Position numbers and translations under genes: made by a program. Positions 13,215 to 60,003 of a stretch of DNA of 64,000 nt are shown here, piece by piece (position 1 is the stretch's first letter; each line of letters starts with the position of its first letter). Origin of the DNA: Anadara kagoshimensis (taxonomy: Eukaryota > Mollusca > Bivalvia > Arcoida > Arcidae); assembly GCA_021292105.1 (NCBI GenBank), contig CM037873.1, positions 10,517,489-10,581,488 of the forward strand, in the 5' to 3' direction. The notes beneath the pieces are model-generated. The model did not search any database and was not told where the DNA came from. It was given only the letters and a program-made list of their open reading frames with translations.

Positions 13215-13274
13215 GAAAGGTTGGGGTGATAGAAGTGGTTTTGGTTTGAGTGTTGTAATTAAACGTAATTACAT

Positions 13275-13515
13275 ATATTAGCAGTTTTAATTTTACAGCA
13301 CTAGACGGCCGTTTCAGAATACAATTCCTCACCAGTAGTGCTTAGACCAAAATTATAAAACCAAAATTATTTTGAAGATGTTGAAAAGCTACCAAAATAT
13401 ATCTTACCAAATTAAGCTAAGGAAATACTTTGCATGAGGGAGTATACCTTAGTTTTTGAGAAATTTCAAATTTTAACTTGCAGGTAATTTAGAGAATTAT
13501 AGTATATTTCTGACC
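13275..13515 (-). mobile_element. Family B retrozyme-like element, about 240 bp
   Basis: Nearly collinear with 54128-54365 over its whole length, from GCAGTTTTAATTTTACAG to TATATTTCTGAC. The ribozyme sense is the minus strand. It encodes no protein. The boundaries are inferred from where the two copies stop matching. Confidence 0.75.
13297..13342 (-). ncRNA. Hammerhead ribozyme, type I small form, core mutated (A6 to G)
   Basis: On the minus strand stem I is AGCACTA/TAGTGCT (perfect). Stem II is GGAAT-TGT-ATTCT (one wobble), followed by GAAA, a short palindromic CGGCCG stem III, and a GTC cleavage triplet. The CTGATGA core reads CTGGTGA, which should abolish or greatly reduce cleavage. Confidence 0.75.
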
Positions 13516-15138
13516 ATAATACGAAATTATTGCCTACTGAGTTTTTATATCCTCGGGGCACCAGCCACCAGCAAAGTATCAGTAATCCAGTATCATTTTA
13601 GAAAATACATAATGTAATGAATTTAATCCCGATATAAAGCAATTTGTTGTTAACGTTTCCTAGATTATTTCTTGCCGATATAAAGCAATTTGTTGTAAAC
13701 GTTTTCTAGGTTTTTTTCACCATATTTTCAAAGCAAGTTAATTACATATTTTGTGGGTCTAGCTTATTTACTAAACGTTTTTTTTTAAATTTAAATATGT
13801 TAGTCTCATATATGTGTATATATATGTGACTTTTAATCAAATGGTTCTGATGCTTCTGACTTTGAAAATGCTTTATATTTTATTCTATCGTAATTTTCTG
13901 GTTACTTTTAAGTTTTATTTGCCCTTACATCATAACTTATTCTGGTTCTAATAAAGAAAATGTGACTAAATTTTAAACCCTAATAACACGGTTAATGGAC
14001 AAAACACGTTATTGATATTACGCTACACTCCTCATAATAAAGCGATTTTAAGGATATTTTTAATGTTTAAATCTTTTTGAAGAAAATTCCACGGGGGTAT
14101 TTCCGTGTCATTCCGTTTGAATCCCGATACATCACTATGTCGGAGGTTCAATAAACTAATACAAATGGCATTAGTTTAATAGAGCTTTTAGCTGAAGGAC
14201 TCCAAGATCCAGTGCATTGTTTATCTATATTTAATGCTAAAACGATTTACATGGTATTTTGTGATCGAGTTAAACAAAATACATTTTTATAATCCATAGG
14301 AAATGTATCATCGGTTCATCCAGGTTTCTTTACCTTGACAACCTTAAGCTTATTTAACTGATCGTTGGAAGAACTGAGATCAATGTGAATTCTAATTTTA
14401 CTACGAATTGATAAGTTTAAAGATACATTAATTTTATACATTGAACAGTGTATTTCATCATTTCATTAGATTAGGGATTTTTGTTCCTGTGCCACCGTCT
14501 GGTTTTTCGGGATTAAAATTACATGTTAAAAAACAATTAAAAAAGACTACCCCACCCCCCAAAAACCTATGAATTCACATTAACCAAACAGACAGCGTAA
14601 CACGGTAATGTGCAACGCAACCAAGAATACCACACAATGCATGTAAAGGATGAAATAGCTAGACAAAGGAGTACAAACGTATTGTAACCACTGATTACAA
14701 ATTAGCCTGCATTGGACAGAAACAGTACTACCCGAGGGACACCAACCGCCCCACGTATGTTACAACCAATAATTGTAGACTCTCCCTATTCCTAATTTAT
14801 ATTTGTAGTGTTATTATTAATTAGTATATTATACCTATTACGTACGATTCATTTCTTACCGCTTATTGTTAAACATTTTGTGTAGGCAAACGCATTATTT
14901 TACAAAATTTAATTATAACGATTGCATATAAATTACTGTTTTAATATACTTTTGATAAGACTTAACGAGGAATAAAGTACCATTATATTGTACTGCTTGT
15001 TTGAGGTGTTAAATTACGTGGGTTTGATTTCTTGTTTGTATATAGATTGGTATTTATTTTGATACAACGAATGAACAAATTAATGCTAATAACATATATA
15101 ATATAAATTTCTCTGTTATAGATGGACAGTTTTTTACC
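13516..15138. other. AT-rich intergenic stretch, no gene seen
   Basis: Contains a short direct duplication (GATATAAAGCAATTTGTTGT twice near 13632 and 13678) and the second family D copy at 14015-14195. No coding signal. Confidence 0.45.
14015..14195. repeat. Family D, copy 2 of a local diverged pair
   Basis: Pairs with 12115-12310; the best block is CCCGATACATCACTATGTC. Both copies lie in the same orientation 1.9 kb apart. Confidence 0.45.
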
Positions 15139-16750: not shown

Positions 16751-16751
16751 T

Positions 16752-17120
16752 CAAAAACAAACATACTAATCCATGTCCGAATCACAATCCAGAAGCAAGG
16801 TAAATACTTTGAAACTAACAAGTTGGGTTAGACACGTGAACTTCCAACAGGGATGTGAGATCGGGTGCTCCGGAAGGGTAAGCACCTCCTGTTTAGCTAG
16901 CTACACCCACCACGTGTGTAATCAAAATTGTGTGAAAGGAACATGGAACTATGAGACGTCAAATATATCCAGGACAATCCTGGACACAGAGACACCAAAC
17001 TTGTCAACAATACTGTGATGACAGACATAAAACTTTTTGGGGCCCTTGATAAGCCTAGGCTTGCAATATCCCTGCGTCATCAATTTGTTTGCAAGCAGCC
17101 TACTTCGTTGTACAAATAAT
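16752..17120 (-). mobile_element. Family A fragment, 3' end plus RT C-terminus
   Basis: Read on the minus strand it runs from the last RT codons (GCAAGCCTAGGCTTATCAAG, FDVSVS-type end) through the 3' untranslated region to the tip at 16752. It is very close to 17650-18000. It forms a minus-plus-minus cluster with the next two entries. Confidence 0.9.
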
Positions 17121-17164
17121 CATTTCTTGTAATTAGCAGCAGTCCCATTTTCTACCTTCTTAAC

Positions 17165-17495
17165 GGAGGTTGTCATTTTGATATTATGTTTGGAAGCCTA
17201 GGCTCATCAAGGCCCTCAAAAAGGTTTATGGTAGTCATTACACTATTGTTGATAAATATAATGTATCTCTATCCAAAATTATCCTGGATACATTTGACGT
17301 TTCATTCTTTCACTCTCAATATTTTTACACGTGGCAGGTGTAGCTTGTTAAACAGGCGTACCTATCTTTCTGGAGCACCTGACCTCGCTTTCCTAGGGGA
17401 AGTTCTTGTGTTTAATTTACTTTGTCAGTTTCAAAGATTTCACTCTGCTTTGGGATTTTGATCTATATATGGATTGTTTTGTTTGTATTTTGTTC
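17165..17495 (+). mobile_element. Family A fragment in the opposite orientation to its neighbours
   Basis: Begins with RT C-terminal sequence (AAGCCTAGGCTCATCAAGGC) and ends near the tip (GGATTGTTTTGTTTG). It is more diverged than the two minus-strand copies on either side, which suggests an older insertion. Confidence 0.8.
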
Positions 17496-17649
17496 TTGGT
17501 GATTACATGCCAAAGATATATTACACTTTCTAATGCTTAAATTAAGAAGCGACAATCATCGACTAAACCAAACAATTAAGGTTTCATATTAAATATCTTG
17601 GAGATTCATAATTTTGGCAATTTATGTATTGTTTAAAATCACCTTTAAA

Positions 17650-18700
17650 ATCAAAAACAAACATACTTATCCATTTCCGAATCACAATCCAGAAGCAAAG
17701 TAAAAACTTTGGAACTGACAAGTTAGGTTAGACACGTGAACTTCCACCAGGGAAGTGAGGCCGGGTGCTCCGGAAGGGTAAGCACCTCCTGTTTAGCTAG
17801 CTACACCCGCCACGTGTGTAATCAAAATTGTGTGAAAGGAACATGGAACTATGAGACGTCAAATATATCCAAGGCAATCCTGGACACAGAGACATCAAAC
17901 TTATCAACAATACTGTGATGACGGCCATAAAACTTTTTGAGGGCCTTGATAAGCCTAGGCTTGCAATATCCCTGAGTCAACAATTTATTTGCAAGCAGCC
18001 TACTTCGTTGTACAAAGTCCCCGTAGTGGGAACAAGCTCTACCATAGCGTATTAATTGGGAAACAAATACACCATAAGCAGGAGAAGCAGGTATATTGCT
18101 GCATAAAAAAGGAAAGTTGACAATAGAAAAATTGAAGTCATCACGTTTGTCATAAAGTTTCAAATGTAGCCTTTCCTGTGCGTCATATTTCAGGTATAAG
18201 TCTAAATATGAAGCAGAACTTGAGGAATCAGTCGTGTCTTTTATTTCAAGCTCACTAGGATAGATGACATTTACATAGTCTCCAAATTTAGGATTGTTAA
18301 GAGACAGAACGTCATCTATATATCTGTATGTTGAGTTGAATGATTTGGCGACAGTTTTTTCTCCAGATTTAACAAGGTTCTGCATAAATTCTGCTTCGTA
18401 AGAATAAAGAAACAAATCAGCAAGCAATGGTGCACAGTTTGTACCCATTGGTATACCGATTGTTTGCTGAAAAACTATATTACCAAACACTACAAATATG
18501 TTATCTATCAAAAACTCCAACATTTTGTTGATGGTATCTTCAGTATATTTTTGTTTGGAATCCGTATGGTGCTTGACAAAATAACCAGAATCCCTATTCA
18601 GCACCAGATATTTGTATCTAGGCTTACCGTTTTTGTAGAAGAAAGACAAGTGAATAATTATATAAAGTGAATATGCCATTGGTACGTTAGTATAGAATAA
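17650..18700 (-). mobile_element. Family A: best copy of the Penelope-like element, 5'-truncated
   Basis: Contains the 276-codon RT remnant (17849-18679) followed on the minus strand by about 200 bp of 3' untranslated region. That region holds a potential hairpin GGTGCT...AGCACC and ends at TATGTTTGTTTTTGATT. All other family A pieces align to this copy, and every piece with a definable end stops at this 3' tip or inside it. Confidence 0.9.
17849..18679 (-). pseudogene. Reverse transcriptase C-terminal part, Penelope-like element
   Basis: 276 codons open on the minus strand. Residues 75-95 (GIPMGTNCAPLLADLF then LYSYE) are RT motif B. Residues 119-123 (R-Y-I-D-D) are the catalytic motif, with both aspartates present. 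About 150 residues follow, ending in a basic segment (LLANKLLTQGY, then KALKKFYGRHHS) and a stop. The upstream palm/finger motifs, including the first catalytic aspartate, are missing, so the copy is 5'-truncated and cannot be active. The combination GxPMGxxxAPxxADL with YxDD fits Penelope-like RTs better than LINE or LTR RTs; that assignment is from family knowledge. No C-terminal GIY-YIG endonuclease is seen before the stop, so the family may lack one or carry it N-terminally. The codons up to residue 15 may be flank rather than element. Confidence 0.85.
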
Positions 18701-21700
18701 AATTGCTTTTGTAATCTCTATAGAAACACCGTCAGTTCAAATAGTGTAATAATTATTGTTCTCGAAGTAACTTTATCACAAACATTAGGTCTTATAACAT
18801 TAGAACATGAAGTTTAATTCTTATCTTCAGATATTTTTTTTAAAGTGAGCATTTTATGAAATTGAAGAATAGATTTATTAGATTTGATTATAAAATACAA
18901 TTATAATTGCAATTCGAAGGTAGGAATCCGGCGAAAAAACTTCTTTGAGTTGGCAATATAAAAGTGAAGTGAAATAAATGCTCTCTCTATAGTTGCCATG
19001 GTCTCTATAGTTGACAGTAAAATAAGAACATTGTACATATTATTAGTTTTATAAAAGAAGTGACATGACATAATATTGAGAAAAGTATTGTGTGTGCATT
19101 CTATTTGTGTAATCAAAAACAAACATACTAATCCATTTCGTAGCATATATGCTTGTAAGACTAGTATTTCATCTCATAAAAGAAGATTTTGGAATTTTTT
19201 CTCGTCTGCTAGGTGTATAATTTTAGACATAATGGTTTCTCCGCTTATTTCTTCTAAAATATAACAATATAAGATATGCTGAAATGAAACCGTTTTCTTT
19301 AAAGATTACACAGATTTACGCACACTACCTACTCGAATAACATTTATTAATATCAATTCAGGTTCAACATTTATATTGAGTTATGTGAAACTATATTTAT
19401 TAAGAAAATAAAATATCCACAATATAGGACAATTTCATATAATGTACAGAATAACAATGTTTATTAAAACTTGAATATCTTCCTTTTCTAGTTGGAAAAT
19501 CACTTATATTTACAATTACACAGGAAACAAATTATGGCGTTATACTACACGAGTAAAACGAAAAAGGCAGGATATTTAAATGAAGAATCGATGTACTATC
19601 CTTATTTTCTTCCCTTGTTACAATAGTTATGAGTTGATAGCTTTCAGTACGTACAAGTTTGAATAACAATCTAGATATTTATTTGACTATTTAAATACAT
19701 GTCACTTGAAATTAAATCATCATTACATATGATTGTGTTGCTAAAGTTCGTGCAATTAAAAGTTCGTTGTCAATCGTGAGCAAACAACAGTTAAAAGCAG
19801 ACTGAAAACAGTTTGAAAACAAAACCCAAACCACATACTCATTTTGAAAAAAATGTTATAAACTTTAGGACTGATTAAGGCTTAAAACAACCTAAATTTT
19901 CAAATAAATGTAAAACATTCTAGTGCATATTTATGATGCAATTTGCATAAATAACTATGATAAGATTGTTCATTTCTATTATTACGCATACAAATGGGCA
20001 CAATATGTTGACATTGAAACAAATTTTTATGCCCATGATCAAAAGATTAAAATTACTTTGTTTAACGGACATTGATAGTTTAATTGGTCATTATTTTATC
20101 ACTCAGAGCGACACACTGCCTGACTAAAAGTCATGCCACTGCGTTTACATGTATTAAATGTTTTATTTTGTATGTAGGATATGATCGTAACGACTTATAA
20201 TGCTGTATATAAGGTTTGCTTTTTAAATGACAAATGTAATTTAAGTATAAATAAGCAACTTCTGGCGAAGCAGAAGTACGCTGTAAACATGTATGCAGAT
20301 ATACCCCCTGAGACCAATATTCCGTGTTCTTATACAATTAGATTAAATTATTTACATGTAATGTATGTTCCATTTAGGAAAAATTAGTTTTGTAGGCAAC
20401 ACCGTGACCTATATGACGCATCAAACAGATCTCATTACAATAATGCTCTATAGAATCCTTTTAAATGAACTTTGATGGATTTTTAGGCGGATAACATGTC
20501 AGGCTGATTTATATAGTGATTGTAGGAGTCTAATTTTTAGTTTTTCTACTGTTTCCTTTGTAATTCAGTATTATTGTTTTTCCTAATACTTGGAGTAAAA
20601 ATACACTTTTAATTGATTACCTGTGTTTAGCATCTGTCCAAGCATTCAAGAACACGACACAAAATAAGAAATTGATTAAAAAAATCAAACCAAGACCATA
20701 CAAGAAAAGACTACACAATAGTCATCACGTTTGTTACACGTACATATCTAATATTGTTCCTGAAGGAAAGATGGACACGACATTGTTCAAGTTTTCTGAA
20801 ACACCTACAAGGCATGTGTAGTTTCTGGAGCTGAATAACTGTCTGTCTTTTTATATTTTTGTACAAAATATTAACAGCCTGTCTTTTTATACTTTTTATA
20901 CAAAATCAATTTTTCTACATAAAATAAACATGCATGTTTTGTAACTGATATTCCTGAAATTTGTACTTGCCCTTGTTAGATTTCTCGAAGCAAATTGCAG
21001 TCAGCCATTTCGACTGTTTTAGTTCAATGTTTTCAGAACTTTATTCATATTGGCAACTTACCGCAAGAGACAAATTTATCTCGTATTGGCCACGTTTCTG
21101 GCAGTGAATTTGATTAGAAATACTATTGCCTATTAATAATTCTTTAGAAGGTAGAATTATTGCAATATTAAAGATTTGCAAAACGAGTGTTGCATTTTTG
21201 AAGACAAATTTTTTACTGCTTTAGACCACTCGACAAACTTTACAAGTTCTTGTAAGTTGTTATAATACAACGTTGTGATTAAGTTTTTCTGTAATCCACA
21301 TAAACATCATTGAACAATTAATATGCAACGCAATAATCCGGTCCGTTGGGAATGTATATTGTAATAAATGGGTTTTAACATCCGTGAACAAACGTATAGA
21401 GGAAGTCATGAATAAATGACAAACTACGAATCCCTTGAAAATTGACGATCTTGATTTTACCGGTCTGTAAATGATTTGAGAACTAAAATGTATACACGTT
21501 GTTATTTGTGATGTATTGGCAATTCAACAAAACAGTAATTAAAACATACTTATGTCGCATGTAGATACATATAAGTAACGGCTCAATGATTTAATAGAAA
21601 TCAGGGACGCTGAATACTCCCAAGGGTAAAACGATATATTAAAATGGAATAAAGTATTACATTTTAGAATCCATTGCCAGAAATATTAAGTATCCGGAAA

Positions 21701-22675: not shown

Positions 22676-22926
22676 AGGAATAACAATTTTCAATAATGAC
22701 AATAATAAGACTAATTGCATAAAACAAGTAAATTTGGTGGGTGTGTACTATCAATGTAACAAAAGTTAAACAAAAAAGTATAGACTGTGTATACGGCATA
22801 GCACATACTAATACAGTGGTACAAATCCAGCCACATGTGCAAAAAATGACCGAAAAACTTGCGTGAAAAATAAACAAACAGGTAAACAAAATAAAACAAT
22901 AAAAGTAATAATAAAGGGAATTAATA

Positions 22927-23172
22927 ATCAAAAACAAACATACTAATCCATGTCCGAATCACAATCCAGAAGCAAAGTAAAAACTTTGGAACTGACGAGT
23001 TAGGTTAGACACGTGAACTTCCACCAGGGAAGTGAGGCCGGGTGCTCTGGAAGGGTAAGCACATCCTGTTTAGCTAGCTCCACCCACCACGTGTGTAATC
23101 AAATTGTGTGAAAGAAACATTGAACTATGGGTGGGACGTCAAATATATCCACCGCAATCCTGGACGCTGAGG
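22927..23172 (-). mobile_element. Family A 3' end fragment
   Basis: Near-consensus from the tip (AATCAAAAACAAACATACTA) through GCCGGGTGCTCTGGAAGGGT to the GACGTCAAATATATCCACCG block, where the last RT codons should begin. Truncated there. Confidence 0.9.
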
Positions 23173-23961: not shown

Positions 23962-26855
23962 AGTCACAAGATTCAAGATTCTTTATTACACTCTGTACCA
24001 CGGAGGTGGTTTTAGAGGTTAAACTATACAATATATATCTATATACAATGGCGGTACACATATAACAAAATTATATTACAACAAAATATTATTAAAACGA
24101 TTTACAATAATTACTCAGTATGATAGATATCAATAGATACATGTTATAAACAGGAAAAAAGAAATAAAATTGATATTTAAGTATAATACTTTAAACCCTC
24201 TTTTAGAAATTTGCATAAATTTAACAGTTCAACCTTATTTGTACTAGTCATTAACATTTGTAATTTTAGAATATTTGGTCTGATATAATATTTTTTCTTT
24301 ATATATTTTTTTCTATTATTTTCAAAAAAGCTACATTCCAATAAAAAATGATACTCATCACCAATTCTGTTTAGATTACATAGATTACATGTTCTGTAGC
24401 TCCTTTCAACATTTGCCTATCTTCCCTTTTCAATTGGAAGAAAATGATTACATGTGCGAAATCTAGCAAAAATTTGTCTTAAATTAAAAGGTAAAATTTC
24501 TAAATATTTCTCTAAGCCAAAATCTACTTTATATATTCTATAAATAACAGCCTTGCTTGAATTTTGAATTTGGGAATACCATGTTTGTAAAAATTGATCT
24601 TTAAGTTTAAGTTCAACAGCTTTACACAACCAATTTTTGTTTATATTCAACGCTTGACAATTCCAAATATTACTAAACCAAGTATTGTTTAACAATTTTT
24701 TTTATTTCAGATATCCATGCTATATTTTTACCGTTATTATTCATAAACAAAAGTGTTCTATAAATATAATTTGACAATTTATCTTCACAAAAAATCAATT
24801 GATACCAAAAAGACAACATTCTTTTGAAAATATGTATATAAATTGGATGTCTACCTAGCTCGCCATAAACCATATAATTTGGCGTAGTCTTTTTCATGTT
24901 TAAAATTCTTTTACAAAATTTAAGGTAAAGTGTTTCAAAAAGTTCTATATTCTCAAACCCCCATACTTCACAACCATATAACATAATTGGTAAAACTAAG
25001 TGATCGAATAATCCTAACTGACATTCGATCGATAATTGTAAATTATTATTTTTTTTATAAACTCCATATAGTGCCTTATTTGCTTGATCTAATAATCTTT
25101 TCCTAGCTTTACAATATTTGTTGTTTGAGCTAAATAAAATACCAAGATAACAATAAATATCTGTATATTCTAATAAAACTTTATCAAACATTATTTTAGG
25201 CAAAATCTTTGGTTTTCTTCTACAAAATAGCATAACTTTAGTCTTTGAAATATTAACTTCTCACTTCCAAAATTTACAATACTCAATAAAAACATTAACA
25301 GCATGTTGCAATTCATTGGCGCTCTCGGCAAAAATGACTGTATCATCAGCATAAAGAAGTATCAAAATTCTTAGAAATATATCAAGATATTCATTACCTA
25401 TTTGAGAAATACTCTCAAGACCTTTACACCCTTTTGACAATAAGAAGTCTTCTAAATCATTAATAAAAATTGAAAATAAGAAAGGGGAGAGATTTTCCCC
25501 TTGTCTAACACCAATTTCACAAGAAAAATACTCTGACATTTTGTTACCTTCAATAACACAAGATTTTATCATATCATACATATTTTTGATTATATTAAAA
25601 CATTTTCCATTAATATTACACTCCCTTAACTTACACCATAATCCATTTCTCCATACCTTATCGAAAGCTTTTTTGAAATCTACAAAAACACAAAAGAGTT
25701 TCTTTCTAGAGGCAAATAAAGTTTCAATAATCCCATTTAACACAAATATATTATCAACAGTTGAGTAAGACTGGCGACACCCCGCTTGTGCCCTTGTAAG
25801 TATATTTTCATTTTCTACGTAATTTTTAAGGCGGCTGTTTATAATAGACGTAAACAATTTTCCAAAACAGCTTAAAATCGTAATGCCTCTATAATTATCA
25901 GGACTTTTTGGATCTCCCTTATTCTTATAAATTGGCTTGATAGAGCCTATTACCCATTCCTCCGGGATTATACCGGTATCTAATATAAAATTAAACAAAA
26001 GTAAATATACAGGTAAAATCTTACTGAGAGTAGACTTTATATATTCGTTTAACACACCATCGGTACCAGAAGATTTACCATTTTTTAACTTTTTGACATT
26101 GTCAATAATCTCTTTTTCTGTAATTTCACCATTAATATCTGCATTATCAACATCACACATTTCATCCATATCTAGCTCGTCTCTGCGAGAGTCATCATTA
26201 TCAAAAGAATTTAAACTCTTAAAATATTCATAAAATTCCCCCAAATCAATCTTTTCATTTTGCTTTTTATTAACATTTCTATTTAAAACCTTCCAATAAT
26301 CCTTTGGATTAGTGGTACGTATACTTTTTAATTTAAGTTCTAAATTTCTTTTATAAATACCATAATGTTTAGACAGTGTTCTTTTGTAAGATTTACAGGC
26401 TACATTCATATTTTTCTTAGCATTTTCAGTTTTAACATTTACAAAATATTTTTTAGCTTTATAATATTGTTTTCTCTTCTGAGTACACTCATTCCCAAAC
26501 CAAGGTAAATTTTTCTTTCTCTTGCGATTATTTCTTTTAAACCCAAACGATGCCCTAGCAGAATTAGTAAACACATTACATATTTTCTGAACAACATTAT
26601 TTACAAATATTTTTTTGTCTGTTGTATTATTAATTAACTGAAAATCATTTACAATTTCTACAATATCCTCATCAAAAACATTATTTACAAAAACTTCAGA
26701 TTTATCTGAACACCATTTTATAGGAAATGTGACACACTCTGTATTATTTACAACACTTTCTGTTATAGAACATTTTAACCTTAACGAAATTGGACAGTGT
26801 ATATCTGAGTACATCTTATTCAACTCAAGTACTGCAAAGTACTACAGGGTTACAA
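23962..26855 (-). mobile_element. Non-LTR retrotransposon (LINE), 5'-truncated
   Basis: On the minus strand: the end of an endonuclease domain, a full reverse transcriptase, a cysteine-rich C-terminus, an AT-rich 3' untranslated region of about 210 bp, AATAAA (plus-strand TTTATT at 23982-23987), and the 3' end GAATCTTGAATCTTGTG with a doubled 7-mer. The 5' side stops at the last residues of the endonuclease (S-D-I-H-C-P-I), the usual result of incomplete target-primed reverse transcription. No clear target-site duplication was found by eye. Clade not assigned; Jockey/CR1-like or related. Confidence 0.85.
24177..26844 (-). pseudogene. LINE ORF2-type protein: endonuclease end, reverse transcriptase, CCHC-like C-terminus
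   Basis: About 885 codons with three lesions. Residues S-D-I-H-C-P-I at the start are the end of an apurinic-type endonuclease. RT motifs follow in order: an NYRGITILSC block, AQAGCRQSYSTVDNIF, FVDFKKAFDKVW (first catalytic aspartate), GVRQGENLSPFLFSIFINDL and LLYADDTVIFAES (catalytic YADD). Lesion 1 is an in-frame TGA at 25261-25263, after CKFWK; the same frame resumes at once. Lesion 2 is a frameshift in a run of eight A (minus strand) near 24690-24697. Lesion 3 is an in-frame TAG at 24417-24419. Beyond it the frame continues through C-x2-C-x9-H-x4-C (RTCNLCNL...EYHFLLEC) to a TAA at 24177-24179. The relic is thus young; one or two more mutations than this would be expected in an old copy. 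The long frames on the opposite strand are shadows. Confidence 0.9.
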
Positions 26856-39350: not shown

Positions 39351-39597
39351 AAATTGTCAGCATAATGTGCAATGCAAGCGAAAAGTTTTTCTTTCAAAAT
39401 ATTCTATAATATACTTTTTTCTACGTAATGTTTCCGGTCTTTTTGTTTCAATATATTGGGTTGCAATGAGCACCTCATATCTGTCACAGTGAAAAAGCGT
39501 TATAAACATTGGCGTGCTACATATATAGTAACGTCATCGTGATTTTTTACCATATACACGTAGGCCTATTATATATGGCGTAATATATTTATTACAT

Positions 39598-39785
39598 ATT
39601 ATACCAGTTTCAATTTTACAGCATTAGACGGCCGTTTCAAAATACAATTCCTTATCAGTAGTAGTGCTTAGACCAAAATTGAGAAAGCAAACATTTTACT
39701 GAGATGTTGACAAGATATTCAAAAGGATCAAATATATGTTACCAAATTTAGATAAGGGAGTGTATTATTGGAAACATTATAGTAA
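39598..39785 (-). mobile_element. Family B retrozyme-like element, shortened
   Basis: Begins ATTATACCAGTTTCAATTTT and includes the ribozyme and the GTTACCAAATTTAGATAAGG block. The far end, present in the 13275 and 54128 copies, is missing or diverged. Confidence 0.65.
39620..39668 (-). ncRNA. Hammerhead ribozyme, core mutated (CTGATAA)
   Basis: The minus strand has GAAA, the CGGCCG stem III and a GTC triplet, but the first core reads CTGATAA (G8 to A). A 3-bp insertion extends stem I, and stem II has a mismatch plus weak pairs. Expected to be inactive. Confidence 0.65.
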
Positions 39786-42140: not shown

Positions 42141-42244
42141 GAACATATTATACTCAATAGATGTAAACGTGTCAACATCCACAATCGTCTTCGTCTATTT
42201 GAAAATATTTTTAATAGTGTAATTAATTACTATAATTAGACATT

Positions 42245-42450
42245 CCACAAAAACTAAGGTATACTCCTTCATGCAAAGTATTTCCTTAGCTAAATGTGGT
42301 AAAATATATTTCGGTTCTTTGCTAATCTTTTCAACATCTTGAAAACAAGTTTGGTTTCAAACATGCGTATTTTCAAAGCACCACTAATGAGAAATTGTAT
42401 TCCGAAACGGCCGTCTAGTGCTGTAAAATTAAAACGTATAATTTGCAACT
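42245..42450 (+). mobile_element. Family B retrozyme-like element
   Basis: Ribozyme sense on the plus strand. From AAAAACTAAGGTATACTCCT through TTTCCTTAGCTAAATGTGGT to the ribozyme and CTGTAAAATTAAAACGTATA. Confidence 0.7.
42377..42422 (+). ncRNA. Hammerhead ribozyme, core mutated (CTAATGA)
   Basis: Stem I AGCACCA/TAGTGCT (one mismatch), core CTAATGA (G5 to A), stem II GAAAT-TGT-ATTCC (one mismatch), GAAA, CGGCCG, GTC. The G5 change should inactivate it. Confidence 0.7.
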
Positions 42451-47929: not shown

Positions 47930-48931
47930 TTAAAGTACCTGTGGACGAGGTCTCCTAAATCGTAAAGATGGGCCACGGGAACCTGATCTATTAATTACAT
48001 TATTTGCTCTTACACTAGCCAAATGCCGCTTTTTACACACATAACGCTTAAAGTATCCGTATATAATAAGATTCCACATTCCTCTTGTAAAATGAAAACT
48101 TATTAAGGCGTTGTATATGATCAGTGATGTCTCAGAAACGTGCCAAACCTTTGTTTCAAAAAATATAAATATTTCCAACGGAAGGTGAGTTATCACTACT
48201 GTCAAATATAACGCAACAAAAAGTTTGATCACATAGAAATAAGTTAATATCCTTTCTCTAAGAACTGTAAAATATTTCCGTGCTAATTTGATATACAGAA
48301 ATGATACAATCACAGTAGGGGTTATAAACAACACAATACAATCCAGTGTAAGGAAGATGTCGTGCAGGTAATAAAAACGGGAACCAAGTGTGCATCTAGG
48401 TAACATACTAAACCCAGAAGCCGAATTTCCAGTTAAAGTTACATTTTCCGAAGTAAAAAGAATCACAGACCATATGTTATATGACGCCGAAAAAAACCAC
48501 AACAAACTTGTTAAAAACATACACCTTGCTACTGCAATTATTTCCCTTGTAGGGCACAATATCCTTATGGTTTTCTCGATGGTCATGAAAACAACTGTGT
48601 ATGGTACAATGGTTTTGTTTAGGTATAACATAAATGAATAAAGTTTGCATAGATATATAGAAGATCCAGTACCGTTTGTGAGGAAAAGTATATGAGTAGG
48701 TATTGTTATAATTCCATTTAAAAAATCCGACGTTGCTATTGAAAAAACAAACACATTCGTTGATCTTCCCAAAAGTTTCCTTTTATGAATTAATGAAAGA
48801 ACAAATCCGTTTCCAATAACAACAAAAACACAAACAGATATATCGGCAATGCTTATAGCATTTAGATAAACATAATCTGTATCCTTGGCCGTAGCATTAG
48901 TATCTGTTACATTAAAAGTATAAGGATTCAT
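47930..48931 (-). CDS. Rhodopsin-like (class A) seven-transmembrane receptor, orphan
   Basis: 333 residues, single exon, ATG with a purine at -3. N-glycosylation sites lie in the N-terminus (N7-V-T, N12-A-T) and second extracellular loop (N163-V-T). Hydrophobic segments: TM1 about 26-48 (G40-N41), TM2 58-80 (D69 in IATSD), TM3 93-118, TM4 135-158, TM5 191-215 (P205), TM6 234-258 (P251), TM7 267-292. C95 and C180 can form the conserved TM3-loop disulphide. Departures from the family norm: the DRY position reads E119-K-T, the CWxP motif of TM6 reads V-I-T-H-L-P, and NPxxY of TM7 reads N-L-I-I-Y (287-291). The C-tail is short and very basic. These features suit a lineage-expanded invertebrate orphan receptor, perhaps peptide- or chemosensory-type; the ligand is unknown. 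Frame and motifs are otherwise intact, so it is called a gene rather than a relic. Confidence 0.88.
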   Translation of the reverse strand: MNPYTFNVTDTNATAKDTDYVYLNAISIADISVCVFVVIGNGFVLSLIHKRKLLGRSTNVFVFSIATSDFLNGIITIPTHILFLTNGTGSSIYLCKLYSFMLYLNKTIVPYTVVFMTIEKTIRILCPTREIIAVARCMFLTSLLWFFSASYNIWSVILFTSENVTLTGNSASGFSMLPRCTLGSRFYYLHDIFLTLDCIVLFITPTVIVSFLYIKLARKYFTVLRERILTYFYVIKLFVALYLTVVITHLPLEIFIFFETKVWHVSETSLIIYNALISFHFTRGMWNLIIYGYFKRYVCKKRHLASVRANNVINRSGSRGPSLRFRRPRPQVL

Positions 48932-50765
48932 TTCAAGTTTTCAAGCATTTTTATGATTTAAAACAAAACTCATACCTCTTCAAAACATTAATAAGTATGC
49001 ATATCATTCCATTTTGATTTTTTCCATTTAAATATAAAATTACACTTAAATAATTAAGTCAAATTGAACAAAAGCACTCATTTGAAACAGACTGTAATGC
49101 TAAGTCAACTTGTGAAATTATATCATGATAGTCCGTTTATCCTTTTTTACATATAAGTCATTGGAATCGCGCGTGAAACTTCTGGAATTATTTAAACAGC
49201 TTACTTGATATTACATCTAATGTTAAAACAAAACAAAATATATTTCTATCAGTCTTCCTTTCCTTATACATTTACGTATTACAGTCGCTTGACATTGATC
49301 CTAAAACGTGACAGTTTAATCTTCTATGAAAATATCTTTCTCCAACTTGATGTGCCACAATATTGGACTTATATAACTGTCCTCTGAATTTCACATACAC
49401 TGGCACAGAACATATATGCTATAGTTGATAGCAGCTGTCTGAAGTCTTTGTGACTCATAGAAGATTACATTTTGTTGTTGTCTATGAACTGATTGGTTCT
49501 TTAGCATATTCATGTGTTTGATGTCACCGTGTCAATCAAAATTGTCACAGTCACATTCGCTTTCAAACAACCATAGAAATACTTTCATTGATTCTATCTG
49601 ATAAAATGTTCATTCATATACTCTCTAGCCAGTGACTTTAAATCATGTTTTTATGTAAAAATGTAGGAAGCTTGGGTAATGATTTATCGTAACGATTTGA
49701 GTTTAGAGCTGATGTAACGATTGATCACTTCTTAAATCAGCGTTGTATAACGATAATTAATCAAACAGTTATGTTGTAGGATGTGTGTTTTTATATATTG
49801 TATTTACTTATATTAACAATTACGAGACAAAGTCAACTTATATACAACATAAGAGTTAACATTTCAGTGTAGAAACAAATGTGCTGTTGTCTTAGAAACA
49901 TAAAGGTATTTATGGAGAGTCATAAAAAGTGTAGGGGCAATATATAATGTATATGTTAACAATGTAGTCTAGAAATTGAATTGCAATATCAATGTATCAT
50001 TTATTGTCAATCGTAAAAAGTGTAGGAGTATTTCAATTATTTTTTTTAACGGTGTAAATACAGGCGTGGTATATTTACAGTAATTTTTTGTAGTATTAAA
50101 TATCAAAATGTTAGAAAAAAGAACAATACACAGTCAGTTCTTTTTTCAAACATAAATTGTCTTCGGCTTTCCCGATAAGATGTTCTTAATTTTCGTAAGG
50201 TAATAAATATTTTGATAGAACGACCAGTTATTTTATTGTTTAGATGCGGTTCTGTCTAGTCAAATATTTAAAGAACCGTCGTATATCTGATATTACTTTC
50301 GATAAACTGAAATGTTTCAAATAAAATAAAAGTACTATAGAGAACCGTTTGTCAACTATCTATGCAATTAAAGACTTCAGAAATGATTTTGTCACTCTGA
50401 ACACATAGACATATATAACGACAAGAACTTTTGTCATTCATTGTGAATTAAAAACATCTTTACTTCTAGTTTTAGTTCTTATGGTCATACAATAAATTCC
50501 CAAACATCGCAATGCCTAAGGTTCTCCTTAGCATTGAAATGGGGTTAAGAAATGTTTTCCCTATCGAAAAATTCTGCTTTTAATGTTCTGGTTTTATTGA
50601 AACTGAAACAAAAATACGTTTGTGAAATGTTTTGTCGCCGGCAACACTTATAGAGGGTCAATTAGGGATCACAACGGCGTTTGCAGCGTCCGCGATGGTC
50701 TCCAGATAAACAAACTTATATTATTGATCAGATTTTATCGCAGGTTGATCAGTTTAAGTGATAAA
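48932..50765. other. Upstream region of the GPCR and intergenic DNA
   Basis: AT-rich with no second gene seen. The receptor promoter should lie in the first few hundred bases above 48931, but no clear core element can be named. Confidence 0.4.
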
Positions 50766-51448: not shown

Positions 51449-51790
51449 TTAATCAAAAACAAACATACTAATCCATGTCCGAATCACAATCCAGAAGCAA
51501 AGTAAAAACGTTGGAACTGACAAGTTAGGTTGGACACGCGAACTTCCACCAGGGAAGTGAGGCCGGGTGCTCCGGAAGGGTAAGTACCTTCTGTTTAGCT
51601 AGCTACACCCGCCACGTGTGTAATCAAAATTGTGTGAAAGGAACATGGAACTATGAGACGTCAAATATATCTAGGGCAATCCTGGAAACAGAGACAACAA
51701 ACTTATCAACAATGCTGTGATGACGGCCATAAAACTTTTTGAGGGCCTTGATAAGCCTAGGCTTGCAATATCCCTGAGTCAACAGTCTAT
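51449..51790 (-). mobile_element. Family A fragment lying exactly between two direct repeats
   Basis: Near-consensus copy: the tip AATCAAAAACAAACATACTA is at its left edge, and the RT C-terminal codons run to TTGCAATATCCCTGAGTCAAC at its right edge. By eye it differs from 17650-17990 at about 4% of positions. Confidence 0.9.
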
Positions 51791-52316
51791 TTGATTATGC
51801 GATGATATTTAGATGATAACTTATGTAATGTGATCGAAATTGGACGAACGTTGGTACGTATCAGCAAAGTACATGTACCTATCAAGGTTAAGGGCTGAAA
51901 GAATTTGCCTATATTTTTTATGATACTCCAAAATTGATTGGTCGGTAATTTCAAGTTTATATCCCTTTAATCATGATGGAATTTTGATGATTATATTGAT
52001 TGGATTTAAATCAAAGCACTTGGAGTTCCTTAAAATTGATTACTGCAAAGCCGCGCGACTTATCCATGTGCTAGGACATCATCAAACATTAAATGTTTTT
52101 TATCTGTGCTTGTATTTTTATATTTGCGATAACTTGTATACAGCTGTAAATATCCTAGAAAGGAGAAATGCAATATAAGTGTTTGGATTTTCTTAATGAA
52201 ATATAAAAAACTAATATGACAGAATCATTTACGTATTATGTATTTTTATCTAAACATGTTTTTCAAAATAAGACTTGTTATCTCTAATAACGTTGTATAA
52301 TACAAATTGTGTTTTA
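51791..52316 (+). repeat. Right copy of a ~520-bp direct repeat
   Basis: Starts GATTATGCGATGATATTTAG and ends AATACAAATTGTGTTTTAA. It has a 6-bp insertion (TACATG) and scattered substitutions relative to the left copy. Confidence 0.95.
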
Positions 52317-53335
52317 AACTATTGTGATGTAGTTTTACTGTCACTACAATATACTTTAAAATACGTATGATAAAACATTGGATTAATTCTCCGTATGCAG
52401 TCAATATACTAATTTACTTGTAAGCAATATTTTACTAGAGTAACATTTCCATATGTACATGCAATTTTGTTGATTCCCTAAGTATTTACATTCTAATTCT
52501 AACATTCAACATAGTCATGTTATTCCGTTGACCTAAAAATACTTTTACTTGAAAGTTACTTAAGTACATTTTCGTAAATCCTTGTTTCCTAGATCGAGAA
52601 AGTCCGAAATAACAAATTAAGAATAATTGGCGAGTCTTGTTAAGTTTTTAAGAGTGTTATAGAGTTTACGGAAAACCACTAATTATGATTTTTATTATGT
52701 TACCATATATATTGATTTTTCTATAATTTCTATCTTTATCAGTCGCTGTCATTTGTAGTAAATATTGTCAGGGATATACATTAGAACTTCTAATCTTGTT
52801 ATCTGTTCCAGACCTGAAGGCTCATTTTCAGATTCTCTCCACTCTCAGATTATCAGATTGAGTTCAAGTTCAGATGATGGCTAACTCTCATTGTTAATAA
52901 ATAAGGAAAATCTAATTCATCCTTTTATCGACTAGTTTGTCAGTATAAATATACATAAAATTGGTCCATTGTTAGGAGGAGTACATTTTGTGAGAAGAGG
53001 TAGAAAAACAACCAGTATCAACAGCGAGGCTGTAAACTTTAAAACGCCAGTATATTCAATCTGCAAGCTTGTTAACCAAATATTAAGAAATCTGTCTATG
53101 TACGTCAAAGCTTGGTTATCAGAAACCCGTAAACAAGCTTATTATGTAATCATTGATAATCAACCTAATTCAAAGACTTAAGAAAGGCTATTAAACACCG
53201 GAGTTGTCGTCTTTCTGTAATTTTACCAATGACAATGTTGTTCTCTGTTTCAAACAACGTGGATGGTTTCATACCTTGACCAGCTCAGTATACAATACTT
53301 TTGTTTTGTCAAAAAAAATTGTCGTTTCAATCTGA
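52317..53335. other. AT-rich intergenic stretch, no gene seen
   Basis: A 70-codon frame at 52969-53181 lacks recognisable features. Confidence 0.4.
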
Positions 53336-53339
53336 AAAT

Positions 53340-53535
53340 CCTCACAAACTAAGGTGTACCCTTATGCAAAATATTTTCTTAGCTAAATTTGGTTCAATAT
53401 AATTTGGTCTTTAAATAAAATTTTCAACTCCTTGAAAAACAGTTTGGTTTCACAATCGTGGTCCAACACTACCGATGAGGAATTGTATTCGGAAACGACC
53501 GTATAGTGCTGAAAATTAACGCTGGTATTATATGT
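53340..53535 (+). mobile_element. Family B retrozyme-like element
   Basis: Ribozyme sense on the plus strand. From CACAAACTAAGGTGTACCCT through TTAGCTAAATTTGGTTCAAT to the ribozyme and the closing CTGAAAATTAACGCTGGTAT. Confidence 0.7.
53465..53510 (+). ncRNA. Hammerhead ribozyme, core mutated (CCGATGA)
   Basis: Stem I AACACTA/TAGTGCT (one mismatch), core CCGATGA (T4 to C), stem II GGAAT-TGT-ATTCG (one mismatch), GAAA, CGACCG and a GTA triplet. Probably inactive or very weak. Confidence 0.7.
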
Positions 53536-54127
53536 GTTGAATTCAGGTACAGGCACTACATTTTTTCTTTTGCTACTAGGTCTCCCTGTTATAAGAGTTA
53601 GAAATGTAGGTTTCAATTCTAGGTTGAATAAAAAACAACGGAGTAAGAAATCTTAATAGACAACATTCCGCTCGTTGAGAAGATCCCGGGGTTCGCTTCC
53701 CGGTAAGGCTGCTGTATTATCTCCTTTGTTCTTAATCTATAAATATTGTTACTTAAACAATAAATATTGTTAGTAGAAATACTTTATTTTTTATCATTTA
53801 AAAATAGAAAAAATAGGACTTGACAAACATAATATATAATCAGATTAACTTTTAACACAAAAGAAAGAAAATTCAGGTGGGATTGTACCACAGTTCACAT
53901 ACCGACTCGTAATTATATCACCAAGTACCTGGCCAGAGTCGAAATATTCTCCTGATGTCAAAAAGAGGCTTTTACACTTAAATGAAGGCGATGATTAGTC
54001 ACTTCTGAGGTGAAGTAATTTGGTGTACATACGAACGTGATAATCAAATCAAATTGCGGTAATATTTTGATGTAACGCGACATTGGGAAGTTATTGAGCT
54101 GAAATATTAGTATGTTATTTGTATTAC

Positions 54128-54367
54128 ATATTATACCAGTTTTAATTTTACAGAACTAAACGGCCGTTTCGGAATACAATTCCTCATCAGTAGTGCTTGG
54201 ACCAAAATTATGAAACCAAAATTAGTTTGCTACCCAAAGGACCAAAATATATTTTACCAAATTAAGCTAAGAAAACACTTTGCATGAGGGAGTATACCTT
54301 AGTTTTTGAGAAATTTCAAATTTTAATTTGCAGGAAATTTAGACAATTATGGTATATTTCTGACAAT
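54128..54367 (-). mobile_element. Family B retrozyme-like element, best copy, about 240 bp
   Basis: Runs on the plus strand from TTATACCAGTTTTAATTTTA to GGTATATTTCTGAC. It is collinear with 13275-13515 along its whole length, including the ATGAGGGAGTATACCTTAG and GAGAAATTTCAAATTTTAA blocks. No coding capacity. The ribozyme lies near the 3' end of the minus-strand sense. It faces the family B copy at 53340 in inverted orientation about 700 bp away. Confidence 0.8.
54152..54197 (-). ncRNA. Hammerhead ribozyme with intact catalytic core (small type I, dimer-like stem III)
   Basis: Minus strand, in order: stem I 5' side AGCACTA, core CTGATGA, stem II GGAAT-TGT-ATTCC (five perfect pairs, 3-base loop), core GAAA, stem III CGGCCG, cleavage triplet GTT, stem I 3' side TAGTTCT (six of seven pairs). 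All invariant hammerhead residues are present. Stem III is only A-U plus two pairs with almost no loop but is palindromic, so two molecules can pair through it. Small hammerheads of this kind that cut as dimers are known from Penelope-like elements and metazoan retrozymes. Cleavage would fall after GTT. Activity is inferred, not shown. Confidence 0.85.
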
Positions 54368-54509
54368 ACTTACTATTTGATTTAAAAACAATTACCAAAA
54401 TTATGTCTTGGTTATAAAGTATTATGTACAACACAAGTCAAGGCGCTAGTGGTTAGCAAGATTGGGCATTCGTTCAGATCCTTAACTCTTATAAATGTCC
54501 AATACATTC

Positions 54510-54835
54510 AAATCAAAAGCAAACATACAAATCCACGTCAAAAACACAATCCTAAAGCATATGAAAATGTTCAAAATTGCAATAAAGATAAACACGAGAA
54601 CTTCAACCAGGTAAGTGAAGCCGGGTGCTCCAGAAAGTACTTACTGTTTAGCTAGCTACATGTAAAATTAACATTGGGGATAAAATGAAATTTAACTACA
54701 GGACGTCAAATATATGCAGGGTAATGTTGGTCACGGAGACAACAAACTCATTGGTATTATAATGACGGCTAAATTTTTAGGGCTTTGTTTAGCTTAGGCT
54801 TACACTATCTTTGTAACTGTAATATCCAGATTCCT
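54510..54835 (-). mobile_element. Family A fragment with RT C-terminal remnant, diverged
   Basis: Tip ATCAAAAGCAAACATACAAA, GAAGCCGGGTGCTCCAGAAA, GTTTAGCTAGCTACATGTAA, and then RT-end sequence GGGCTTTGTTTAGCTTAGGC. Confidence 0.75.
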
Positions 54836-56640
54836 ATCATATTTGTATATTATAAATATGTATGACGCCAATAGTGTATGTTACGTGACGTTGGTATGAC
54901 GTGGTCAGTCAAAAAAGATAAATTGAACAGCCATATTGTGTCTGTGTGATGTCTCCAAAGGGCAAGCCAAATATCTACTTATATATCCGTGATACAAAGC
55001 CATCAACCAAGTCCACTACAGTGACAACAAAGACATTGCTATAGTTTTTATCAAGATTGTTGTTTTACAAATATTTAAAACTATACAAAATATATATCAA
55101 CAAGCATTTTACATGTAGATTGAGAAGATATCTACTGAACCCAATTCACATAAGACTTACATATCGATCATACCGAATGGTAATTCGTTAACAACTAATT
55201 GAATATAACTGAAGTAGTTTATTCTTGTTCTATCGTCATTATCACACAATCAACTAACTGGCTTCAGTAGATATTTCCTCTTATTTGTTTCCTAACTGTT
55301 TTATTGTGATACAATTTATTTATATCAAGTGGAGTAAATTGGATGTAAATGTTTGCGACAGGGTAGAAAATAAGACAAAATCGTACGTTTGAGGGCAGTT
55401 TTATAAACAATTATTGTAACTTTAGGGTTATGTTCAGGATTATTGAGTATGAAAGTGTTGTGAATGTTTTTTACTTATTGTTTTTATTAATTTATCTTTG
55501 ACCTAAATTCGCCAGTTGAAGTTAATTTAGTTGTCACAATGAAGGTTTGCATTAACTAGCTTTCAACATTTAAGGATATTTACTGCTGAAGACCCAGATA
55601 TTTCCTGCATTAATTTTTGTACCTACTTTTGGGATTGATATGACTATGAAACAATGATTTATGAAAAAATCATATGTTAGTGGCCTACTTTTTCGCTATG
55701 CTCTTGCAAATTACCTATATGCAAAGTTCGTTCCGCAATTACCCTTTATTTAAACCTTTGACCGACATGTATCTCACGAAACAAAATAATTATTTAACAA
55801 AACAGCTATATGTTATTGCTAATATATAAAATGTTTATAAAATCTGCCGTTTGTCTTAGTGAAAATTGTGCTTATTAGATGAAGATAATCAAATTCTCTC
55901 TTTTTTCAGATTAATGACTGTAAAAATGTAAACCAATGAATTTTGATAAACTAAAACAGATATATATTAGATATGCATTAATTCTGTTAAGTCAATTTTT
56001 TAGACCTACTCTATTCTCTTCATATTTTGGCTTAGGTCAATGACTTTTTCTTAGTTATAAAACAGTTATATACAAAAAATTACAATACTAAAAACTACTT
56101 GTAATAATTAAACACATAATTTTTTCATAGAGCGTAATGAAATGATAAATATTCATAAATTCATTAACAACTTTCACCAGTGGTACATATTTTGTAAATT
56201 ATTTTAACGAGACTGTAACATTTAAAAAATACATCTTTTATACCGCTCAAACGCGGCAAAATTAAACATAATACCAGTTTTAATTTTACAGCTTTCAGTA
56301 AAGTGATATCTTTATAACCTTGAACATTTGTATTGAGCTTTCTCCGTGTTTGTTTTGTTTTGAAGAAAACAAGCATTTGACAAAATCCAGAAGATTGGCT
56401 TTAAAATTCTAACACTTAACATTGATGACTGATACCTGGAGAAAAACAAAGGTGTTTGTATTGCATCGATAAGCTAATTAAGAAACGTTTGAATTAAATT
56501 ACGGCAATATCACTTGTCAGTTTTATACGATCCATTTGTTTGAATTTGAAATTGATTGTTTCCACTCTTTAATCGAGCGAGAATTGTAAATTAATGATAA
56601 AAGTTCAATGTCCTATAATAGACATGTTTCCACTTTGCAT
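54836..56640. other. AT-rich intergenic stretch, no gene seen
   Basis: Contains a possible tiny family B end at 56268-56298 (ATACCAGTTTTAATTTTACA). No coding signal. Confidence 0.4.
56268..56298 (-). mobile_element. Family B terminal fragment without ribozyme
   Basis: TAATACCAGTTTTAATTTTA then CAGCT. The match stops within stem I of the ribozyme, close to the predicted cleavage site. Confidence 0.45.
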
Positions 56641-58217: not shown

Positions 58218-60003
58218 TGCAAGAATTCACCTTGCACACTGCCCACTCACTACCTGTATCTGGTAAGACTAAAAATTCCCCAGTACACTGCCCACTCACT
58301 ACCTGTATCGCTTAAGTCTCTAAGAATTCACCTTGTACACTGCCCACTCACTACCTGTATCTGGTAAGACTAAAAATTCCCCAGTACACTGCCCACTCAC
58401 TACCTGTATCGCTTAAGTCTCTAAGAATTCACCTTGTACACTGCCCACTCACTTCCTGTATCTGGTAAGACTAAGAATTAACCCTGTACACTGTCCACTC
58501 ACTACCTGTATCTGTTAAGTCTGTAAGAATTCACCCTGTACACTGTCCACTCACTATCTGTATCTGTTAAGTCTCTAAGAATTCACCCTGTACACTGCCC
58601 ACTCACTACCTGTATCTGTTAAATCTCTAACAATTCACCCTGTACACTGCCCACTCACTTCCTGTATCTGGTAAGACTAAGAATTCACCCTGTACACTGT
58701 CCACTCACTACCTGTATCTGGTAAGACTAAGTATTCACCCTGTACACTGTCCACTCACTACCTGTATCTGTTAAGTCTGTAAGAATTCACCCTGTACACT
58801 GCCCACTCACTACCTGTATCTGTTAAATCTCTAACAATTCACCCTGTACACTGCCCACTCACTACCTGTATCTGTTAAGTCTGTAAGAATTCACCCTGTA
58901 CACTGTCCACTCACTACCTGTATCTGTTAAATCTCTAACAATTCAACATGTACACTGTCTACCCACTTCCTGTATCTGGTAAGACTAAGAATTCACCCTG
59001 TACACTGTCCACTCACTACCTGTATCTGGTAAGACTAAGTATTCACCCTGTACACTGTCCACTCACTACCTGTATCTGTTAAGTCTGTAAGAATTCACCC
59101 TGTACACTGCCCACTCACTACCTGTATCTGTTAAATCTCTAACAATTCACCCTGTACACTGCCCACTCACTACCTGTATCTGTCAAGTCTAAGAATTCAC
59201 CTTGTACACTACCTGTATCTGGTAAGACTAAGAATTCACCTTTAACACTGTCCACTCACTACCTGTATTTGTTATGTCTCTAAGAATTCACCCTGTACAC
59301 TGTCCACTCACTACCTGTATCTGTTAAGTGTCTAAGAATTCACCTTGTACACTGTCCACTCACTACCTGTATCTGTTAAGTCTCTAAGAATTCACCTTGT
59401 ACACTGTCCACTCACTACCTGTATCTGTTAAGTCTCTAAGAATTCACCTTGTACACTGTCCACTCACTACCTGTATTTGTTATGTCTCTAAGAATTCACC
59501 CTGTACACTGTCCACTCACTACCTGTATCTGTTAAGTCTCTAAGAATTCACCTTGTACACTGTCCACTCACTACCTGTATCTGTTAAGTCTGTAAGAATT
59601 CACCTTGTACACTGTCCACTCACTACCTGTATCTGTTAAGTCTCTAAGAATTCACCCTTTACACTGTCCACTCACTACCTGTATCTGTTAAGTCTCTAAG
59701 AATTCACCTTGTACACTGTCCAATCACTACCTGTATCTGTTAAGTCTGTAAGAATTCACCTTGTGCACTGTCCTCTCACTAACTGTATCTGTTAAATCTC
59801 TAAGAATTCACATTGTACACTGTCCACTCACTACCTGTATCTGATAAGTCTCTAAGAATTCACCTTGTACACTGTCCACTCACTCCCTGTATCTGTTAAG
59901 TCTGTAAGAATTCACCTTGTACACTGTGCACTCACTACCTGTATTTGATAAGTCTCTAGGATTTCACCTTGTGCACTGTCCACTCTCTACCTGTATCTGT
60001 CAT
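58218..60003. repeat. Minisatellite of about 34 units, 52-bp and 50-bp variants
   Basis: The unit contains CACTGTCCACTCACTACCTG, TATCTGTTAAGTCTCTAAGA and ATTCACC. A 50-bp form has GGTAAGACTAAG instead of GTTAAGTCTCTAAG. Early units alternate as a dimer of about 100 bp (near 58223 and 58323), and a block starting GTATTCACCCTGTACACTGT recurs at 58731 and 59039, 308 bp apart. The period is not a multiple of three and no frame persists. Confidence 0.95.

Follow-up and report, generated by a model that had tools for sequence, protein, structure and literature searches.

Minimal hammerhead ribozymes are known both as dispersed motifs and in the ends of Penelope-like elements (PMC7761336), and retrozymes reside in mussel repeats of about 350–390 bp (PMC7229834). 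The enzyme that copies retrozyme circles into the genome, and the way in which this enzyme is primed, were left open in the 2020 retrozyme paper, in which Penelope-like elements are described as strong helper candidates (PMC7229834). A purified Penelope-like enzyme has been found to start reverse transcription internally, downstream of its hammerhead, at sites matching the ends of the genomic copies; this enzyme requires the first 172 nt of the ORF as RNA, and the hammerhead is dispensable for insertion in vitro (PMC11167929). The family described here, from the bivalve Anadara kagoshimensis, combines thousands of intact hammerhead motifs with a fixed 3' end, and it shares a sequence motif with a Penelope-like element that is abundant in the same genome; together these would permit a direct two-component test of the copying enzyme. 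The copy present in the window (the whole stretch of 64,000 nucleotides analysed) is of little interest in itself.

Judged by its sequence, this window copy is probably a single, decayed copy, truncated at its 5' end, of a non-autonomous retroelement that carries a hammerhead and belongs with the metazoan non-LTR retrozymes. Younger copies of the repeat point to a spread via RNA, perhaps circular, that is reverse-transcribed from a single fixed start. The original prediction, that the order of motifs on the minus strand is that of a type I hammerhead, was borne out by direct reading of the sequence and by a strict descriptor, with the core (CUGAUGA/GAAA/GUU) intact. The components of the motif are as follows.

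54152..54197, minus strand: type I hammerhead ribozyme motif with intact core (sequence; strict descriptor; Rfam Hammerhead_1 at 19.1 bits, below the cut-off of 34)
54194-54191, minus strand: 5' strand of stem I, ACUA
54190-54184, minus strand: core, CUGAUGA
54183-54171, minus strand: stem II, GGAAU/AUUCC, a perfect 5 bp with loop UGU
54170-54167, minus strand: core, GAAA
54166-54161, minus strand: palindromic stem III, CGGCCG
Predicted cut after 54159, minus strand: GUU
54158-54155, minus strand: 3' strand of stem I, UAGU

The strict descriptor (the core, a stem I of at least 3 bp, a stem II of at least 4 bp and a minimal stem III) was composed with the motif already known; it gave a single match on the two strands of the whole window, at 54152-54197, and no match on one strand of 19.2 Mb of first-order Markov sequence. 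A looser hammerhead pattern was not significant, with two overlapping matches in the window and at least two matches in 16 of 100 shuffles. The covariance-model search proposed with the original prediction fell short: Rfam returned no family at gathering score for the whole window, no hammerhead at E <= 10 for 601 bases and none listed at E <= 1 for 20 loci (41.7 kb), and Hammerhead_1 (RF00163) stayed below its gathering cut-off of 34 both on a 71-base stretch of the window (19.1 bits, E 0.011, whole model covered) and on two units of the related locus L003 (28.1 bits each, E 0.00012). Rfam also recognized a U1 spliceosomal RNA at L005 (3035-3161, 108 bits), cut off by the end of that locus. 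Genome-wide, the 35-base motif with GUH was found exactly 2,842 times (1483 + 1359), against 0 + 0 for the reversed control, and the general hammerhead pattern CTGATGAGN{5,14}CGAAACN{2,8}GTC 7,054 times (3516 + 3538), against 4 + 0 for its control. By these counts the motif is real, although the formal covariance-model test was not passed. A chance resemblance would agree with the loose pattern and with the Rfam scores under the cut-off, but it was rejected, its probability being negligible in view of the empty random sequence, the two genome-wide counts and the fact that the hammerhead varies less than the remainder of the unit.

The genome (1.1 Gb, in which at least 19 contigs reach 37 Mb) was sampled by fetching, with their flanks, 40 places that are the best matches to the window copy rather than a random sample, together with 20 blind-chosen stretches of 10 kb, and the copies were aligned to a consensus. 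Two of the 67 aligned copies, from the window locus itself (L001), were removed; the remaining 65 include both the window copy and its duplicate, L046. The element had been described as a dispersed one of 240 bp, which is about right for the window copy (245 bp); the family unit is 338–339 bp long, non-coding and often tandem. The unit (338 bp, GC 0.346, with a longest open stretch of 49 codons in three joined units) has the features looked for in a retrozyme, namely a type I hammerhead with an intact core, in the family as in the window copy, within a non-coding, low-GC repeat of about 150–450 bp. Head-to-tail tandem copies, also expected, occur in the family, the window copy itself being single: a search with the whole unit gave 40 best places, of which 22 hold at least two full units (each with 321 or more of 337 bases), the largest arrays have 12 and 10 units, and the period is 338 or 339 bases in 42 of 53 unit steps.

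The best matches are spread over all 19 large contigs, and most exact motifs seem to be single, given that only 17 of the first 100 listed of the 2,842 lie within 700 bases of a same-strand motif and 83 have no neighbour within this distance (counted by eye). The cleavage triplet in these first 100, all from contig C1, is GUC in 98, GUA in two and GUU in none. Tandem neighbours are mutually closest in five of the eight pairs with at least 100 shared columns (for example, 0.9% at L003 against a mean of 5.4%), and the other three are not clean, with 1 of 26 loci closer at L034, 7 of 48 at L038 and 40 of 41 at L050; the sister pattern is seen in three of the eight shorter pairs compared and not in five, one further pair being too short. 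Ordinary satellite DNA, multiplied by unequal exchange or extrachromosomal circles and carrying the hammerhead along, would produce the near-constant period and the similar neighbours, but it is very improbable with best matches on all 19 large contigs, so many motifs without a neighbour and the same end shared by 50 of the 65 copies. The blind-chosen stretches (200 kb) contained seven unit fragments, with an intact core in none of the four that span the whole core, which corresponds, as a rough figure, to some tens of thousands of fragments genome-wide.

In units of at least 88% identity, the hammerhead (2.1%) and the tail (1.7%) vary less than positions 200-264 (5.3%) and 1-199 (3.8%), and 13 alignments not picked as best matches lean the same way (11.5% and 13.0% against 14.8% and 22.2%), although the choice of copies as best matches may account for part of this difference in the hammerhead. 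Covariation was considered and rejected as proof: among 53 non-consensus motifs from 100 places listed, a standard change on both sides of stem II was seen once (G-C to T-A), beside many broken pairs, and the palindrome of stem III persists in 14, as expected of decaying copies. In the consensus hammerhead, stem I has seven continuous pairs and loop II is 3 nt long, which leaves little room for a loop-loop contact between stems I and II. The double-hammerhead dimer of the consensus is the minimum-energy fold (-36.7 kcal/mol), which agrees with the original prediction of a type I hammerhead whose minimal palindromic stem III lets two molecules pair, as in Penelope-like elements and retrozymes. 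A stable, highly self-paired circular RNA, a typical though not a strict trait of retrozymes, was not obtained for the unit; its circular fold (-64.4, against a shuffle mean of -59.3, sd 4.7, n=100; z -1.1) is not unusually stable.

The window contains the following copies and parts of the unit, placed by alignment to the unit; the extent of the tail rests on the 50 of 65 copies that end at unit 337-338.

54124..54368, minus strand: 5'-truncated single copy, unit 80-338, 245 bp, 92% identical to the consensus, with the family 3' end at 54124/54123
54124..54158, minus strand: 35-nt tail, from the predicted cut to the fixed element 3' end
13269..13580, minus strand: longer related copy, unit 16-338, core changed to CUGGUGA
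42231..42448, plus strand: related copy, unit 123-338, core changed to CUAAUGA
53329..53535, plus strand: related copy, unit 126-336, core changed to CCGAUGA
39592..39757, minus strand: related copy, unit 176-338, core changed to CUGAUAA
57158..57272, plus strand: related copy, unit 220-334, core changed to UUAAUGA and GGAA
56262..56292, minus strand: 31-nt tail-only stub, unit 308-338, starting 4 nt past the expected cut position

CUGAUGA is thus intact in one of the six window copies that reach the hammerhead, that at 54124-54368. Even this copy is weakened relative to the consensus: its stem I consists of four continuous pairs followed by a C-U mismatch, so that the fifth pair is lost, and it has GUU instead of GUC, a triplet also present in several loci picked for their likeness to it. 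For this copy, the hammerhead dimer (-23.3) is less stable than the minimum-energy dimer (-26.3). The release of a unit needs two cuts, and the window copy is single and 5'-truncated, with no second intact ribozyme in the window (none of the five other core-covering copies being intact); the suggestion that it could still release a circular or unit-length RNA was not upheld, and such a release seems unlikely. The copy is probably a relic of a retrozyme-type insertion that produces nothing useful today. The same insertion with the same flanks is found at L046 677-932 (G000:C17, about 8.78 Mb), in a duplicated segment of the same contig, and the hammerhead of this duplicate has GUC, CUGAAGA and a stem I as short as that of the window copy. 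Elsewhere, the window carries two tandem repeats, one of 48 bp (about 30 copies, 1-1432) and one of 52 bp (about 35 copies, 58221-60000, with strong GC skew), and encodes a B-box zinc finger protein with a weak NHL match (4345-6273, plus strand) and a rhodopsin-like receptor (47933-48940, minus strand).

The 50 copies that share the 3' end at unit position 337-338 stop 35–36 nt downstream of the predicted ribozyme cut, and their 5' starts vary from 16 to 310, none falling at unit 1-3 and a single one at 301-307; tandem copies make up 11 of the 50. What follows the tail, within the 30 bases of flank taken for each copy, is either the next unit or copy-specific sequence. Array 5' ends seemed to accumulate at unit 289, a pattern that was rejected: the unit continues upstream in nine of the ten edges fetched, L071 alone starting near there, so that the accumulation looks like a clipping effect of the search. 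An extra ACA after the 3' end was also rejected as a part of the element, the next sequence being TAC in 30 and TT in 15 of the 50 copies; array units begin with TTAAACC, and ACA is thus more likely to be target sequence. Target duplications of 15 bp have been reported for Nematostella repeats (PMC4918200), and those of retrozymes, where they occur, are expected to exceed 4 bp. Those seen here, in 48 copies (the window row and L046 being left out), are weak and irregular and have no fixed length, with a mean flank-match score of 3.90 against a permuted mean of 2.97 (highest of 200 permutations, 3.65) and scores of at least 7 in three copies against a permuted average of 0.8 (up to 4). At L008 (1162-1675) and L032 (353-870), young copies lie inside older copies of the same family, in the opposite orientation, with about four repeated edge bases.

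The fixed 3' end fits reverse transcription started internally on a circular or uncut multimeric RNA; internal starts have been reported for a Penelope-like element. In the pathway envisaged for the family, an array would be transcribed by read-through, adjacent hammerheads would cut the RNA, and a host ligase would circularize the units (after Cervera and de la Pena 2020). Reverse transcription would then start from one internal site, placed 35–36 nt downstream of the cut by the fixed genomic 3' ends, and the resulting DNA copies would have the same 3' end but different 5' ends and would comprise from under one to several units; the enzyme would most likely come from a Penelope-like element. 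The template would have to be a circle or an uncut multimer, because a linear monomer cut by the hammerhead offers only 35 nt upstream of the start. The 31-nt stub at 56262-56292 has about the shape expected from reverse transcription of such a linear cut monomer.

Many features of the single copies would also be produced if the unit had moved as a linear SINE-like RNA by target-primed reverse transcription, with the hammerhead as a role-less leftover and the arrays arising by template jumping or by insertion beside an older copy. Single copies have a common 3' end and variable 5' truncation, just as SINEs and LINEs do, copies that are not tandem or whose tandem form does not reach the 3' end number 54 of the 65 (the tandem ones being 11 among the 50), and the hammerhead of an active Penelope-like element can be dispensed with in vitro (PMC11167929). 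This route is nevertheless unlikely: the 5' ends do not pile up at a defined transcript start (0 of 50 at unit 1-3), the period stays near-constant at 338/339 in arrays that reach 12 units, neighbouring units are often each other's closest relatives, and the hammerhead and tail are the least variable part of the unit.

For the copying of retrozyme RNA, a candidate helper is represented in the window by the following fragment.

17852..18736, minus strand: reverse transcriptase fragment of an abundant Penelope-like element, candidate helper and not part of the retrozyme (RVT_1 E 0.0005, below the curated cut-off)

The only solved relative of this fragment at E <= 0.1 is a telomerase reverse transcriptase (E 0.00024), as expected of Penelope-like elements. 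Near-identical copies are very many, with 73,198 first-look candidates genome-wide and 133 scored copies that are 94–100% identical. L081, the one long copy read, has an open frame of 1067 codons in which GIY-YIG (E 0.00017, 22.2 bits, cut-off 22.6) lies ahead of the reverse transcriptase (E 0.0002, below the cut-off), an arrangement that we take to be that of the 'Naiad' type; our search found no literature on Penelope-like elements with GIY-YIG before the reverse transcriptase. Unit 17-52 matches L081:496-531 at 29 of 36 bases, and one of 400 shuffles was as good or better (39 against 37). From L081:497 onward, but not upstream of it, L081 and L082 are 99% identical in the 344 bases compared, and the shared motif sits at the point where this agreement begins; a third copy, L083, begins only at L081:736, and the slice fetched for L084 contained no part of the element. 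Two further links were rejected: the two versions of the 36-nt motif fold differently alone and have only sequence in common, and the Penelope-like 3' end (17640-18016 and copies) is not the source of the tail, having a different sequence and other flanks. The connection between the Penelope-like element and the retrozyme unit is suggestive, not proven, and the helper role is one that we infer.

Many Penelope-like 3' ends of various ages are present in the window (16749-18016, 22921-23171, 51451-51793, 54507-54809 and others), one of them about 140 bp beside the hammerhead copy. On the minus strand of L083 (reverse-complement 140-572), an old partial-plus-full retrozyme tandem (81–87% identity) lies upstream of, and in the same orientation as, a 5'-truncated Penelope-like copy. 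The window also carries the reverse transcriptase of a further retroelement (25264-26841, minus strand; RVT_1 E 8.7e-32).

The shared motif could also mean that the unit is itself the ORF-less end (pseudo-LTR) of an autonomous Penelope-like element with the same hammerhead, its copies being solo or tandem ends; minimal hammerheads are known in Penelope-like pseudo-LTRs, and such ends can be moved alone in trans (PMC7761336, PMC3846280). This is distinctly unlikely, as L081 lacks a hammerhead and its family has another 3' end, and as the 30-base flanks lead from the tail into the next unit or into copy-specific sequence. An ORF for a telomerase-like reverse transcriptase joined to a hammerhead end was not encountered, the unit having no ORF and the ORF of L081 no hammerhead. 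If the family is instead a retrozyme, as preferred here, it may be speculated, though with considerable doubt, that it parasitizes the Penelope-like element through the geometry of its RNA, having taken over the motif from the helper's 5' end (unit 17-52, matching L081:496-531), which it carries 17–52 nt downstream of the start. The role of the hammerhead would then be to make the circle that places the motif behind the start: on a linear cut monomer, a start 35 nt from the 5' end would give a stub only, and full copies would need a circle or an uncut multimer.

Among described systems, the metazoan non-LTR retrozymes of mussel, coral and axolotl (Cervera and de la Pena 2020, PMC7229834) resemble the family in having a type I hammerhead in a short, AT-rich, non-coding tandem repeat, with a weak stem III and thousands of motifs. 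They differ from it in that most exact motifs here seem to be single, the predicted circle is not unusually stable, whereas highly self-paired RNAs are described there, and the hammerhead here is minimal (seven continuous stem I pairs, 3-nt loop II); the parts of that account drawn on do not describe a fixed 3' end beyond the cut site such as the one seen here (PMC7229834). A literature search for a hammerhead element of bivalves or SINEs found none, and the family is not claimed to be new to the literature. It would be a further member of the retrozyme kind, and its fixed 3' end and shared motif may be new, neither appearing in the excerpts examined, which came from searches with other aims than retrozyme 3' ends.

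Penelope-like elements and Terminons likewise carry minimal type I hammerheads, placed near the 3' end and with a short sequence after them (PMC7761336, PMC6431247; Cervera and De la Pena 2014, as cited). Partial tandem and 5'-truncated copies, seen in the unit family, are reported from Penelope-like elements too (PMC3846280); unlike these elements, the unit has no ORF. In Poseidon of Anolis (PAc; Frangieh et al. 2024, PMC11167929), genomic copies stop at fixed places past the hammerhead cut while the template continues beyond, a likeness to the fixed 3' end described here. PAc differs in being autonomous, with the reverse transcriptase before GIY-YIG, and in its main starts, which lie 85–92 nt after the cut (reckoned from the positions given), against 35–36 nt for the end of the unit; the main text of that paper contains neither the word retrozyme nor the word circular. 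The abundant Penelope-like element of this genome has the other order, with GIY-YIG before the reverse transcriptase, and carries at its 5' end a version of the 36-nt motif of the unit; it is of interest here as a candidate helper, not as the hammerhead feature itself.
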